A stretch of 50,574 nt of DNA, taken from an uncultured Coriobacteriia bacterium (GTDB lineage: Bacteria > Actinomycetota > Coriobacteriia > Coriobacteriales > Eggerthellaceae). The DNA is taken from positions 1-50,574 of the forward strand of contig CASEJD010000056.1 of the NCBI GenBank assembly GCA_949288145.1, read 5' to 3'. Below, in pieces: positions 35,910 through 39,900 of the stretch. The position numbers and the translations under genes were made by a program. Within the stretch, counting starts at the first letter, position 1. Each line of letters begins with the position of its first letter. The notes under the pieces are model-generated. The model had not been told where the DNA came from, did no database searches, and saw only the letters and a list, made by a program, of their open reading frames with translations.

Positions 35910-36656
35910 TTACTGGCCCTCCGCCTGCAGCGGCGGCACCTCCCTGCCGGTGATCTCTTGGTCCGCCTCGCTCATGAGGCGGTCGATGCGCGCCGCGAGC
36001 TCGGCGCACTCGAGTAGGTTGCTGCGGACAAGGTCGGTCTTGCGGTCTTCGTCCTTCTTGTACAGGAGCTTGTGCTCCAAGCTCGCCCACACGTCCATGG
36101 CGAGCGTTCGCAGCTGGACTTCCACTTCCATGGTCTTGCGGCGGTCATGCAGGAAGATCGGGACGGACACAATCAAGTGCAGGCTGCGGTAGCCGCTCTC
36201 CTTCGGGTGGACGATGTAGTCCTTCTTCTCCACCAGCCGCACGTCGTCTTGGCGCAAGAGCGCGTTCGCCAGCATGTACACGTCTGACTCGAACGAGCAC
36301 AGCACGCGGATGCCCGCGATGTCGCTCATGCCAGCCTCGATGGCCTCGGGCGTGAGGTCGATGCCCTTGCGCTCCGCTTTCTCCAGAATGCTCTCCACGG
36401 ACTTCAGCCGCGACTCGATGCCTTCGATGGGATTCTGCTCGCTGTCGAGCGACAGCTCCTCGTTCAGCACGCGGAATTTCGTCTCGACCTCCATAAGCGC
36501 GCACCGGTAGTACGCCATGAGCTCGCGAAACGGCAGCGAGTACTCCTTAAGGATGCTGCGCGCCAGGTCGTTGTCGAAGCGCTGCATGAGCGCGCGCTTG
36601 AAGTCCTCCGCGACTCCCTCGGTGAACGCGTGGAGCCCCGATTTTCGATCCTGCAT
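35910..36656 (-). CDS. Small alarmone synthetase (RelA/SpoT domain)
   Basis: This 248-residue protein consists of a RelA/SpoT nucleotidyltransferase domain without hydrolase or regulatory domains, as in RelQ/YjbM. Motifs are SDIAGIRVLC (synthetase start), KKDYIVHPKESGYRSLHLIV (GTP-binding G-loop) and VEVQLRTLAMDVWASLEHK (catalytic glutamate region). It would make pppGpp/ppGpp from ATP and GTP or GDP in stress. The ATG at 36656 is chosen because gaggagg precedes it, over an earlier frame extension. It is a single gene converging on the DUF2252 terminator. Confidence 0.88.
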   Translation of the reverse strand: MQDRKSGLHAFTEGVAEDFKRALMQRFDNDLARSILKEYSLPFRELMAYYRCALMEVETKFRVLNEELSLDSEQNPIEGIESRLKSVESILEKAERKGIDLTPEAIEAGMSDIAGIRVLCSFESDVYMLANALLRQDDVRLVEKKDYIVHPKESGYRSLHLIVSVPIFLHDRRKTMEVEVQLRTLAMDVWASLEHKLLYKKDEDRKTDLVRSNLLECAELAARIDRLMSEADQEITGREVPPLQAEGQ

Positions 36657-36998
36657 GCGAAACCTCCTCAAAGTCTGCGCGCCCAAAAGCCGAACACCCC
36701 GTGCCGTTTACGCTTGAGCGGCGCGAACCGTATCTTCTCGCAGCCCGACGCCGCGCGGCAAGGGACACCAACGGAGCTTGAACGAACCGTTACGGAAGAG
36801 AAGCGGCATCAAGCGAAAAGCTGCCGGAAGACATCGGCCTCGTGGCAACGTCGTGAATAACGCCCGAACGCCCAGAGCGCAGGTTAGACTGAGCGCACGC
36901 AAGAACGCTGTCGAACGAACACGGGGCGCACGGAACGCGCATCTCGCAGACAGCGTGGACGGTGGCATCGATCGCACGATGCCGCGAAAGGACGGAGC
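36657..36998. other. Gene-free stretch
   Basis: This is 342 bases between the divergent alarmone synthetase and zinc-finger genes. Long open frames here lack start signals and look like high-GC shadows. No repeat or RNA was recognised. Confidence 0.4.
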
Positions 36999-37292
36999 AT
37001 GGGAAGCAGGAAGCCTTCCGCGAAGGCAAAACAGGTCGCGGCGTTTAAGGCAGAGCTGGGCGGCATGGACGACACCTTCGCCCGCGAGGAACGCCGGCGC
37101 GAACAGCGCGCAGCCGAGCACGAGGAGGCCCTGCGCGAGAAAGCGTGCCGTTCGAAGAACCGTTATTCCTGCCGCTCTGAAGCCGAAGGCGCCATCCGCG
37201 CGTGCGCCGACCACGGCACGACCGGCTTGCACAGCTACCGATGCCCCTACTGCAACGGCTGGCACCTCACCTCGAAGCCCGAGCGGAAATAA
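36999..37292 (+). CDS. Small C-terminal zinc-finger protein
   Basis: This 97-residue basic/acidic protein has a highly charged helical middle (EERRREQRAAEHEEALREKA) and a C-terminal motif RCPYCNGWHLTSKPERK preceded by CRSKNRYSCRSEAEGAI. The CPYC-x-x-WH pattern is shared by small, often phage-linked or RNA-associated proteins of actinobacteria. The ATG at 36999 follows gaaaggacgg. Function is unknown; nucleic-acid binding is inference. Confidence 0.7.
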   Translation: MGSRKPSAKAKQVAAFKAELGGMDDTFAREERRREQRAAEHEEALREKACRSKNRYSCRSEAEGAIRACADHGTTGLHSYRCPYCNGWHLTSKPERK

Positions 37293-37416
37293 CATGCGGG
37301 CACACCCTCGGCGCCCCTCCCAGAGTGCCACGACCAGCATGTCGCGCTATGTTTGCGCGCACTGCGGCAGGGTGTGAAGAAATTGTGAACCATGGCTTAC
37401 TTTTCAAGCTCCCCCC

Positions 37417-37445
37417 TTGCCAGCCAGCAAGAGTTAACCTAGGAT
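37417..37445 (+). promoter_or_regulatory. Promoter of putative small RNA
   Basis: -35 TTGCCA (37417-37422), exactly 17 bases, then -10 TAGGAT (37440-37445). This is close to sigma-70 consensus. Start predicted near 37452. No protein start follows on this strand before the terminator. Confidence 0.6.
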
Positions 37446-37451
37446 AACAGT

Positions 37452-37591
37452 CGTCCCAAGGAACGAAACCTCCTCTCTCTCCGAAGGACGCGAACCTTGC
37501 TTAACCGGGTGGTGGAAGCTCCTCTCGTCTGGCTGTCCACCACAAAATCTAAAACCCCAGGCCTCCTCCCCCTTGCCTGGGGTTTTCTTTT
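37452..37591 (+). ncRNA. Putative small RNA of about 140 bases
   Basis: Between a good promoter (37417-37445) and a strong terminator (37554-37591) there is no coding gene; the next gene is on the opposite strand. The segment holds a stem gtggtgga (37509-37516) / tccaccac (37536-37543), and the terminator itself has a C-rich loop. Each hairpin loop or linker carries a cctcc/ctcct motif (near 37469, 37519 and 37563), complementary to Shine-Dalgarno aggagg, as in several Gram-positive regulatory RNAs. It does not match 6S, SRP or RNase P RNA by eye. The 5' end is estimated from the promoter. Confidence 0.6.
37554..37591 (+). terminator. Terminator of putative small RNA
   Basis: The stem accccaggc (37554-37562) / gcctggggt (37575-37583) has a pyrimidine loop and ends in ttttctttt. 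It is an intrinsic terminator with no upstream protein gene closer than 260 bases. Confidence 0.88.
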
Positions 37592-37712
37592 GCCCCACCG
37601 ACCAAAGCCGGCGGGGCGCACTACTGTTGCATTTGCCGTTAATCGCTCAACGCGGTTGCGTACGGACCGCTCCGTCCGTACGCCACAACCTGCCGAGCGA
37701 CGCTGCGGGCCT

Positions 37713-38036
37713 TTACTTCTCCTCGTAGAGCTCGATGATAGCGTCGTCCTTCACGACGAACGCCAGGCGCACGCCCTCGCCCAGGCTCTCCGGGCCGAAG
37801 ATGACGCGGTCAGCGTCCTGCGCGTACGCGTCCAGGTCGTCGACCTTGTACGCCACGTGCGGCTGCTTCGAGAGGATCTCCGGGAAGCGGGTGCCCTCTT
37901 CGAACTTCAGATACTCGATCTTGTAGTCGTACTCGTCGACGCTCTCGTTCACCCAGAAACCGCCCCACTCGTTGTAGACCATGTTGGGCTTCTTGTTCAG
38001 CACCGGAATGCCGATGTGCATGTACTCAGCGGACAT
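37713..38036 (-). CDS. VOC/glyoxalase-like protein
   Basis: This 107-residue protein has the short beta-alpha pattern of the vicinal-oxygen-chelate fold. It starts MSAEYMHIGIPVLNKKPNM and ends VVKDDAIIELYEEK, with metal-site candidates His7 and Glu103 region. It may act as a dimer. The ATG at 38036 follows gaaaggtg and is preferred to an upstream frame extension. It is the last gene of the DhaK/DhaL/aldolase group, 102 bases after dhaK, suggesting a role in handling triose or keto-sugar intermediates (inference). Confidence 0.68.
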   Translation of the reverse strand: MSAEYMHIGIPVLNKKPNMVYNEWGGFWVNESVDEYDYKIEYLKFEEGTRFPEILSKQPHVAYKVDDLDAYAQDADRVIFGPESLGEGVRLAFVVKDDAIIELYEEK

Positions 38037-38138
38037 GAATGGACACCTTTCTGTCGAAGGGTTCAAGCGCCCGAAACGCACCGGGCGCGACACAGGGCGC
38101 CGCACGAGCGCCGCTCGCCCAGCGCCCCAAGATTTCGC

Positions 38139-39137
38139 TTACTCCTTGAAGAACACCGGGGTGTGCGCCGGGGTGTTCCACAGGCGCACGAACTCGTCGT
38201 CCCACTTGGCGATGTTCATCTGGAAGCCGCCGGCCTCCTGCACGGTGAGAATCTCGCCTACCATGTTGGCCACGACCTCGACGCCCAGACCCTGCAGGTA
38301 CTCCACCGTGTCCTTGAACAGGATGAGCTGCTCCATCATGGTGGTGGCGCCGCAGCCGTTGATCATGACGAATGCCTTGTCGCCGGCGGTCAGGCCCAGA
38401 TGCTCCACGAGCTTCGGCGCGATGAGGCCCACCGTCTCCTTCGAGGACGCCATGGGTACGCGCACGCCGCCGCCTTCGCCATGCTGGCCGGCGCCGATCT
38501 CCATCTGGTCGGTCTCGCCCAGGTCACCGAAGGACATGCCGTTCTGCGGGTGCGTCGCGTCGGTGCTCTTGACGGTGATGGACGCCATGTTGTCGGCGTA
38601 GCGCTGCGCAATCTCGGCTACCTCGTCGAGCGTCTTGCCCTCGGCCGCCGCCGCGGCGGCAATGTGGTACAGTGGGACAGCGCCGGCCAGGCCGCGCTGG
38701 TTGTCCTCGCCCTCCGGGTCGTATTTGATCTCTTCGCCCGTGACCACCTGGCGGACCTCCATGCTCGCCTTCTTCGCGAGTTTCATGGCCTGCTTGCCGG
38801 CCAGCTGGTCGCCCGCGTAGTTCAGCGTGAGCAGCAGCACGCCGTGGCCTTTGTCGGCCAGCTTCATGGCCTCGAACACGGCTGCGCCGTTCGGCGCGGC
38901 GAAGATGTCGCCGTCGACCTGGATGTCGAGCATGCCGGGGCCGACGAAGCCCTTCTGCGCCGGCTCATGGCCGGATCCACCGTACGTGACGACCGTCACG
39001 CGGTCCGCGTCGGCGAGCGCGCGGCTGACGACCGTATGGCCGTCGACCGTGAGGACGTCGCCGTACGCCAGCCCGAAGCCGACGAGCTCTTCGTCGGTGA
39101 TGGTCTCCTGGCTGTTGATGAACTTCTTCATCGCCAT
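38139..39137 (-). CDS. dhaK: Dihydroxyacetone kinase, DhaK subunit
   Basis: This 332-residue substrate-binding subunit of dihydroxyacetone kinase has GGSGHEPAQKGFVGPGMLD (about 53-71), which forms the substrate pocket, and GAGQHGEGG (about 217-225) with the histidine that binds dihydroxyacetone covalently as a hemiaminal. The length is normal. It works with DhaL (next upstream), which carries the nucleotide. The start at 39137 uses gaggagc. No DhaM phosphotransferase subunit is present in the window, so the phosphate source (ATP or PEP via a distant DhaM) is open. Confidence 0.93.
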   Translation of the reverse strand: MAMKKFINSQETITDEELVGFGLAYGDVLTVDGHTVVSRALADADRVTVVTYGGSGHEPAQKGFVGPGMLDIQVDGDIFAAPNGAAVFEAMKLADKGHGVLLLTLNYAGDQLAGKQAMKLAKKASMEVRQVVTGEEIKYDPEGEDNQRGLAGAVPLYHIAAAAAAEGKTLDEVAEIAQRYADNMASITVKSTDATHPQNGMSFGDLGETDQMEIGAGQHGEGGGVRVPMASSKETVGLIAPKLVEHLGLTAGDKAFVMINGCGATTMMEQLILFKDTVEYLQGLGVEVVANMVGEILTVQEAGGFQMNIAKWDDEFVRLWNTPAHTPVFFKE

Positions 39138-39250
39138 GTGCTCCTCGCTTTCCCGGGCGCACAGCCCGTATCCGAGGGGCGGCGCGTCCGAACACAGCGC
39201 ACCGCCCGTCTTCTCACCCCGCTCCTGCGCGAGGTCATGACCGAATGCTC

Positions 39251-39281
39251 ATGTGAAAAAGGGACAGGCACTTTTTCACAT
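39251..39281. repeat. REP-like hairpin between dhaL and dhaK
   Basis: A perfect 11-bp pair, atgtgaaaaag (39251-39261) / ctttttcacat (39271-39281), surrounds ggacaggca. Hairpins with a gggacaggca core and ttttcaca arms occur as dispersed REP units, some linked to TnpA_REP (RAYT) transposases in other genomes. Here it lies in the 154-base gap inside the dha cluster and might also attenuate transcription. No RAYT gene is seen in the window. Confidence 0.6.
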
Positions 39282-39291
39282 TCCTGCGGCG

Positions 39292-39900
39292 TTACGCCTG
39301 AGCGAGCCCCTTGAAGAAGCGCGCCATGGACACGGCGCCCGCGTCCGGCGTGCCGATGGTCTTGTCGCCGTAGCTCTTCGCGCGGCCGAACTTCGAGGCG
39401 AAGTTCTTCGTGTTCTCGGCGCCGGCTTCGGCGGCCTGCGCGGCGGCGTCGAACAGCGCTGCCTCGTCGCCCTCGCACGCGGCGATGGCCTCGCAGGCGG
39501 GAATGAACGCATCCATCATGGTCTTGTCGCCCACCTGCGCGCCCGACATGTCGGACAGCTCCTCGAGCGCGTTCGCGAACATGGCCTTGAGCTGCGCCGC
39601 GTCCGCCGCATCACCTTCGGGCGCCTCTTCCTGCAGCGCGTCGAGCCACGTGTTCCACAGCGGCACCGCGCTGCCGCCGTTCAGCACCATGACCGCCATG
39701 GCCGCATCGTCAAGCATCTCCTGGATGCCGCCGTCGGCCTCAGCCACGGCGCCTTCAATGGCGTTCGCAATCTTGACCATGGTCAGGCCATGGTCGGCGT
39801 CGCCGAAGTGCGAGTCAATCTCGGTCAGCTCCGCCTCGGAAGCGACCACCTCGGCGCACGCATGCTGCAGGCGTGCCGCCAGCTCGTCTTTCGTGATCAA
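39292..39900 (-). CDS. dhaL: Dihydroxyacetone kinase, DhaL subunit
   Basis: This 202-residue DhaL-type nucleotide-binding subunit has EIDSHFGDADHGLTM (about 27-41), matching the D-x5-D-x-D magnesium/nucleotide motif. A glycine-rich turn NGGSAVPLWNTWLDAL and the typical end KSYGDKTIGTPDAGAVSMARF follow. The best start is TTG 39900 (gaaggagg six bases upstream); no ATG or GTG fits this signal. It carries ADP/ATP that phosphorylates the dihydroxyacetone held by DhaK. It lies 135 bases after the aldolase gene. Confidence 0.9.
   Translation of the reverse strand: MITKDELAARLQHACAEVVASEAELTEIDSHFGDADHGLTMVKIANAIEGAVAEADGGIQEMLDDAAMAVMVLNGGSAVPLWNTWLDALQEEAPEGDAADAAQLKAMFANALEELSDMSGAQVGDKTMMDAFIPACEAIAACEGDEAALFDAAAQAAEAGAENTKNFASKFGRAKSYGDKTIGTPDAGAVSMARFFKGLAQA

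Follow-up and report, generated by a model that had tools for sequence, protein, structure and literature searches.

A conserved small RNA of Eggerthellaceae with a proposed role in iron sparing

The small RNA gene and its relatives

The window, which is the whole stretch of 50,574 nucleotides analyzed here, holds a free-standing small RNA (sRNA) gene between a zinc-finger gene and a VOC-type gene. The initial annotation had described a near-consensus promoter and a strong terminator around about 140 bases without a gene, and this anatomy was confirmed by promoter scan, fold and sequence. The only promoter-like site in the region 36000-39500 consists of TTGCCA (37417-37422), a 17-bp spacer and TAGGAT (37440-37445), one site being found against a shuffle mean of 0.3. 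Folding of the predicted transcript (144 nt as folded) gave an energy below that of the shuffles (z = -3.1) and three hairpins, the last of which is the terminator. The terminator is plain in both the sequence and the fold, with the arms AAAACCCCAGGC (37551-37562) and GCCTGGGGTTTT (37575-37586) enclosing the loop CTCCTCCCCCTT, followed by CTTTT. Three C/U-rich stretches are unpaired in the fold, at 37469-37482 (5' loop), 37519-37530 (middle) and 37563-37574 (terminator), which agrees with the earlier placement of cctcc/ctcct motifs in loops or linkers. The features of the locus are as follows.

37373-37384, plus strand: conserved element TGTGAAGAAATT, immediately next to the upstream operator and belonging to the conserved block TGTGRAGRAATTGTRWRCC (promoter alignments)
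37385-37400, no strand assigned: upstream operator GTGAACCATGGCTTAC, palindrome GTWARCC-WW-GGYTWAC, score 19.6; the same motif occurs in feoAB promoters
37417-37445, plus strand: sigma-70-type promoter TTGCCA-17-TAGGAT (promoter scan), conserved in relatives
37433-37448, no strand assigned: second operator GTTAACCTAGGATAAC, overlapping the -10 box, score 20.3
37452-37591, plus strand: small RNA gene, predicted transcript, start within 3 nt either way (promoter/terminator anatomy; covariance model R1)
37452-37490, plus strand: 5' hairpin, variable between genera, with the C/U-rich loop CCTCCTCTCTCTCC at 37469-37482 (fold)
37509-37543, plus strand: core hairpin with stem GTGGTGGA/TCCACCAC, an inner stem and loop CTCCTCTCGTCT; invariant CTCGTCT at 37524-37530 (alignment, covariation, loop counts)
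37519-37529, plus strand: predicted seed CTCCTCTCGTC, perfectly complementary to GACGAGAGGAG at ribosome-binding sites (seed-match scans)
37551-37591, plus strand: terminator with the C-rich loop CTCCTCCCCCTT (37563-37574) and T tail (fold, covariation, C run in relatives)

Other readings of the locus were also considered. A small coding gene was rejected because the frame is not conserved, and the relatives differ by insertions and deletions not divisible by 3 in length, which argues against a coding ORF. A mobile element or a phage or plasmid origin was likewise rejected, the searches having returned no match. Elsewhere in the window, an inverted repeat (TGTGAAAAAGGGACAGGCACTTTTTCACA, 39250-39282) lies between dhaK-like and dhaL-like genes and occurs there as a single copy.

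Relatives were sought by DNA search in 60 related genomes and by pattern scan in GTDB contigs, and turned up, among others, in Aveggerthella, Eggerthella, Paraeggerthella, Gordonibacter, Rubneribacter, Ellagibacter and Raoultibacter. A first alignment of 21 sequences gave a two-hairpin consensus with compensatory changes at 18 of 21 pairs. The covariance model matches 72 of 138 Eggerthellaceae genomes, often with two to four copies per genome. The genome taken as E. lenta DSM 2243 has two copies, at 727580-727683 (plus strand) and 2736214-2736317 (minus strand). Runs of N, which mark masked sequence, break some of the loci or their neighbors (L035, L084 in G. pamelaeae, L041/L133 in Raoultibacter), and copies may be undercounted there. 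In 296 genomes sampled from Coriobacteriia, matches outside Eggerthellaceae had only E values of at least 5.8e-4, and the sRNA is taken as absent or too diverged there, nothing convincing having been found. In the larger alignment (100 members, 88 distinct), 20 of the 21 pairs changed on both sides, and 98.2% of cells are paired against 36 to 59% in slid structures. Conservation together with covariation rules out chance. The sRNA is kept across the family, and its stems covary, which supports the initial proposal of a free-standing regulatory RNA whose C-rich loops are anti-Shine-Dalgarno and answers its caveat that the sequence might not be conserved in close relatives.

CUCGUCU, the core-loop heptamer, is kept in 86 of 87 members while the stem varies freely, a pattern characteristic of RNAs whose loops have to contact a partner. 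All 87 members carry four or more consecutive C in the terminator part, and CCUCC, CUCCU or C5 is found in the 5' domain of 48 of 74 (shuffle mean 16.4, maximum 26). The proposed C-rich motif thus holds as far as pyrimidine loops are concerned, but its invariant part is CUCGUCU with the adjacent pyrimidines rather than a bare CCTCC. The core loop diverges in one subgroup (L113-L132, mostly from a genus labeled g6), reading CUCCUCGUCUCGC or similar, and most of this subgroup lacks a feo/dtxR neighbor within 2 kb; the targets of the subgroup may differ from those of the main group. In Paraeggerthella, a further divergent copy (L118) adjoins an ABC transporter gene instead of feo/dtxR, and its -10 operator is still recognizable.

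Operators, neighboring genes and the DtxR-type regulator

The two operators of the window sRNA are the only sites with motif scores above 10 in the whole 50-kb window. Most members share this arrangement: GTTARCYTAnnnTAAC encloses the -10 box of a -35/-10 promoter, and a second palindrome, GTWARCCWWGGYTWAC, immediately precedes the -35 box. The operators lie a whole number of helical turns apart, 36 to 37 or 46 to 48 bp in nearly all members, giving two classes that differ by one turn. The same motif is found before feoA and/or between feoA and feoB at 12 of 12 feo loci, that of the window's own genome included; there are 28 occurrences in the 12 feo regions (15.9 kb), while shuffled sequence gives 0.25 and 176 kb of other loci gives 4. 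The block TGTGRAGRAATTGTRWRCC, at up to two mismatches, occurs in 10 genomes, mostly at sRNA promoters. A response-regulator site (TGTGAA-N5-TGTGAA, PhoR/WalR-like) was dropped as the main reading of the upstream block because the same palindrome is present at feoAB and over the -10 box, although a second factor may act at TGTGAAGAAATT.

Outside the window's genus, the typical order is feoB, sRNA and a dtxR-type gene on one strand, or the sRNA directly before a gene for a DtxR/MntR-family repressor. DtxR-type and/or Feo genes adjoin 54 of 91 sRNA loci, some of which come from near-identical genomes, whereas 37, including the window and most of L113-L132, have neither within about 2 kb. Many genomes have the dtxR-type gene downstream on the same strand, in some cases 24 to 45 bp past the modeled sRNA; the gene is also present in genomes that lack the sRNA. 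The window sRNA is not at a feo locus, and its next gene is convergent. The initial annotation had suggested looking for covariation in orthologous loci between the zinc-finger and VOC genes; the covariation was found, at 20 of 21 pairs, but these neighbors are local to the window's genus and are replaced elsewhere by feoB and the DtxR-type repressor gene. For the VOC-type gene itself (37713-38042, minus strand), relatives from E. lenta and further genera (L247, L248, L266) have a ribosome-binding site perfectly complementary to the sRNA loop; the ribosome-binding site of the window copy is not a perfect complement.

The regulator encoded at the feo locus is a 126-aa protein. Its phmmer matches are 8pvt (an iron-dependent repressor) and MntR, IdeR and DtxR chains, and judged by this similarity it is homologous to the DtxR/MntR metalloregulators. 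MntR models score above DtxR models, all of them below cut-off. Almost all members carry the metal site EACxxEH, in which the Cys aligns with Glu99 of Bacillus subtilis MntR. In DtxR/MntR proteins this position sets the metal choice, Cys being of the iron type and Glu of the manganese type, so the Cys favors iron.

Predicted targets and the proposed regulation

The initial annotation had called for target prediction with the loops against ribosome-binding sites. A 14-nt loop complement with one mismatch gave only scattered candidates (acpP, efp), and for this reason a shorter seed with a start codon was used, that is, the core-loop complement GACGAGAGGAG, an 11-mer, located 3 to 10 nt before ATG. 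In 22 sRNA-bearing genomes this arrangement occurs 55 times against 10 for the permuted control GCAGAGAGGAG, a thin comparison because it uses a single permuted control. It occurs 8 times in 22 family genomes without a model-detected sRNA (per-base ratio 4.95, p = 6e-7). Anywhere in the sequence, the bare 11-mer was counted 112 times, the sRNA genes themselves among them, against 22 for the control. The seed and the Shine-Dalgarno sequence overlap, and some of the enrichment at start codons is therefore generic.

Fifty of the seed matches precede an ORF of at least 60 codons; these were classified by a Pfam-type scan of one or a few members per group, with orthologues assigned by sequence. By our own count, 24 of the 50 are genes for Fe-S, heme or molybdopterin proteins. 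Molybdopterin oxidoreductases (PF00384) account for 12 of the 50 (24%) compared with 1.3% of genes, a background for which gene number was estimated from genome size (p = 1.5e-12), and after collapsing orthologues they still account for 6 of 29 groups (p = 1.6e-6). They come from several genera and are accompanied by ferredoxin-type (Fer4) subunits, one of them in E. lenta, by multiheme cytochromes of the Cgr1-like type in the window's genus (at 95 bits they stay under the Cgr1 cut-off), and by aldo-keto reductases with a 4Fe-4S domain. The window's own genome has four perfect sites, before genes for a molybdopterin oxidoreductase (L263), a Cgr1-like cytochrome (L262), a TPR protein (L245) and an S-layer-domain protein (L229). 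Matches that are not iron proteins include KdpC, RodA-like, S-layer and TPR proteins, a YhcG nuclease and a D-Tyr-tRNA deacylase. The predicted sRNA-target duplexes reach -27 to -37 kcal/mol, ignoring the cost of opening the hairpin, and cover the Shine-Dalgarno sequence. Over its 11 nt the seed thus complements iron-protein mRNAs at the region where translation starts, a feature that marks the class of iron-sparing sRNAs.

A conserved structured RNA, a two-operator promoter, operators shared with feoAB, adjacency to feoB/dtxR and seed enrichment at the start codons of iron-protein genes and in sRNA-bearing genomes are all present in the sequence, and they point to a trans-acting, DtxR-repressed, iron-responsive sRNA of Eggerthellaceae that probably masks the Shine-Dalgarno sequences of iron-protein mRNAs and thereby spares iron. 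When Fe2+ is plentiful, the 126-aa DtxR-family repressor would occupy the two operators and switch the promoter off; such repression is suggested by the position of one operator over the -10 box. When iron is scarce, derepression would allow the sRNA to be made, and its C/U-rich loops, above all CUCGUCU and the flanking CUCCU, would pair with the Shine-Dalgarno region of target mRNAs. These would encode dispensable iron-rich proteins, namely molybdopterin oxidoreductases with their Fe-S subunits, multiheme cytochromes and 4Fe-4S aldo-keto reductases, and blocking their translation initiation would spare iron. From the sequences we infer expression of the sRNA, operator binding and iron sensing by the DtxR-type protein, and translational repression through pairing.

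Several alternatives have to be weighed against this reading. The sRNA could mainly be a cis-acting 5' leader or attenuator of the downstream dtxR-type gene, its terminator setting the regulator level (autoregulation), with no trans targets. The same-strand dtxR-type gene in many genomes, where a gap as short as 24 to 45 bp leaves little room for another promoter, speaks for such an arrangement, but it does not fit the 37 of 91 loci, the window and most of L113-L132 among them, that have no dtxR-type or Feo gene nearby. It also leaves unexplained both the invariant loop under a covarying stem and the seed matches at iron-protein start codons in sRNA-bearing genomes, and we regard an exclusively cis-acting leader as unlikely. 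Because the gaps to dtxR are so short in some genomes, a cis role as dtxR leader through terminator read-through may nevertheless coexist with the trans role.

A manganese-responsive RNA under an MntR-like sensor would fit the higher scores of the MntR profiles and the presence of the Mn efflux gene mntP (L280) among the seed matches; the feoB neighborhood, the iron-type Cys at the selectivity position and the iron-protein targets all argue against it and make it quite improbable. The sRNA might also be a general anti-Shine-Dalgarno RNA for another stress, such as nitrogen or envelope stress, of the ar14/NfeR1 or staphylococcal RsaE type and with no special iron link. By its shape and CUCCUC loops, ar14 is indeed the best Rfam match (25-36 bits against a gathering score of 58.8), but the operators common to feoAB, the feoB/dtxR neighbors and the enrichment of Fe/Mo targets render this reading highly improbable.

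Literature searches found no description of a small RNA in Eggerthellaceae, which are gut actinobacteria, and there was no Rfam match. The iron-sparing sRNA seems likely, with somewhat more reserve than its basic mechanism, to be a previously undescribed family-wide riboregulator, with two to four sibling copies in many genomes, which sits between a ferrous-iron transporter and its own repressor and couples iron supply to a large set of Mo/Fe-S oxidoreductases and cytochromes acting on drugs and on dietary and host compounds; it may also be a leader that tunes the repressor. Eggerthella and Gordonibacter reportedly modify drugs, catechols and other compounds, as in a catechol study in E. lenta, and these enzymes belong to the class apparently targeted by the sRNA. 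If so, the iron level would act as a switch, at the post-transcriptional level, for the microbial metabolism of drugs and metabolites.

Comparison with known regulatory RNAs

The initial annotation recognized no standard RNA family, and the Rfam scan of the window sRNA likewise gave no family at gathering score; a permissive scan returned only sub-threshold ar14 and weaker, chance-level matches. The 6C RNA of actinobacteria resembles the sRNA in having stem-loops with C-rich loops that bind mRNAs, but its model (RF01066) gave no match even at E <= 10, its layout is different, and we know of no link between 6C RNA and iron. For ar14 (RF02344), the window sRNA scored 31.5 bits and its relatives 25.2 to 36, against a curated cut-off of 58.8. 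The alphaproteobacterial ar14/NfeR1 has three hairpins with anti-Shine-Dalgarno loop motifs, the ultraconserved CCUCCUCCC in all three, and a role in nitrogen stress (PMC10746234). The three anti-Shine-Dalgarno loops are common to both, whereas the motif differs; identity with ar14 was rejected because CCUCCUCCC is not in all three hairpins here and the core loop is CUCCUCUCGUCU with the invariant CUCGUCU. As no Rfam model of a known family matches at threshold, the sRNA was classed as an independent new family within a functional kind already known.

Within that kind, the mycobacterial iron-sparing RNA MrsI has a site for the DtxR-family regulator IdeR in its promoter (PMC8628891). It resembles our sRNA in being actinobacterial, in the iron sparing proposed here and in a promoter site for a DtxR-family regulator, which is putative in our sRNA, and differs in its six-nucleotide seed and hypF/bfrA targets, with no C-rich three-loop layout described in that paper. 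FsrA of B. subtilis uses a C-rich motif against Shine-Dalgarno sequences (PMC9410917). FsrA and the proteobacterial RyhB and PrrF do the job proposed here, an iron-sparing response through base pairing, but they are Fur regulated, work with protein helpers (Hfq or FbpABC) and lie at a different genomic place, and their families gave no Rfam match here.

The closest parallel in design is IsrR, an iron-sparing sRNA of Staphylococcus with three C-rich regions, two repressor boxes, pairing to Shine-Dalgarno sequences and Fe-S enzyme targets (PMC9410917). For the Eggerthellaceae sRNA a counterpart to each of these is predicted from sequence; IsrR is proven by experiment. IsrR belongs to a different phylum, has Fur boxes where DtxR-type operators are predicted here, and gave no Rfam match; several copies per genome and the feoB-dtxR location further set the Eggerthellaceae sRNA apart. 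It seems to have evolved independently as a new counterpart of RyhB, FsrA and IsrR; if this is true, the iron-sparing RNA would have been invented independently once more, converging on the C-rich three-loop design of the staphylococcal IsrR.
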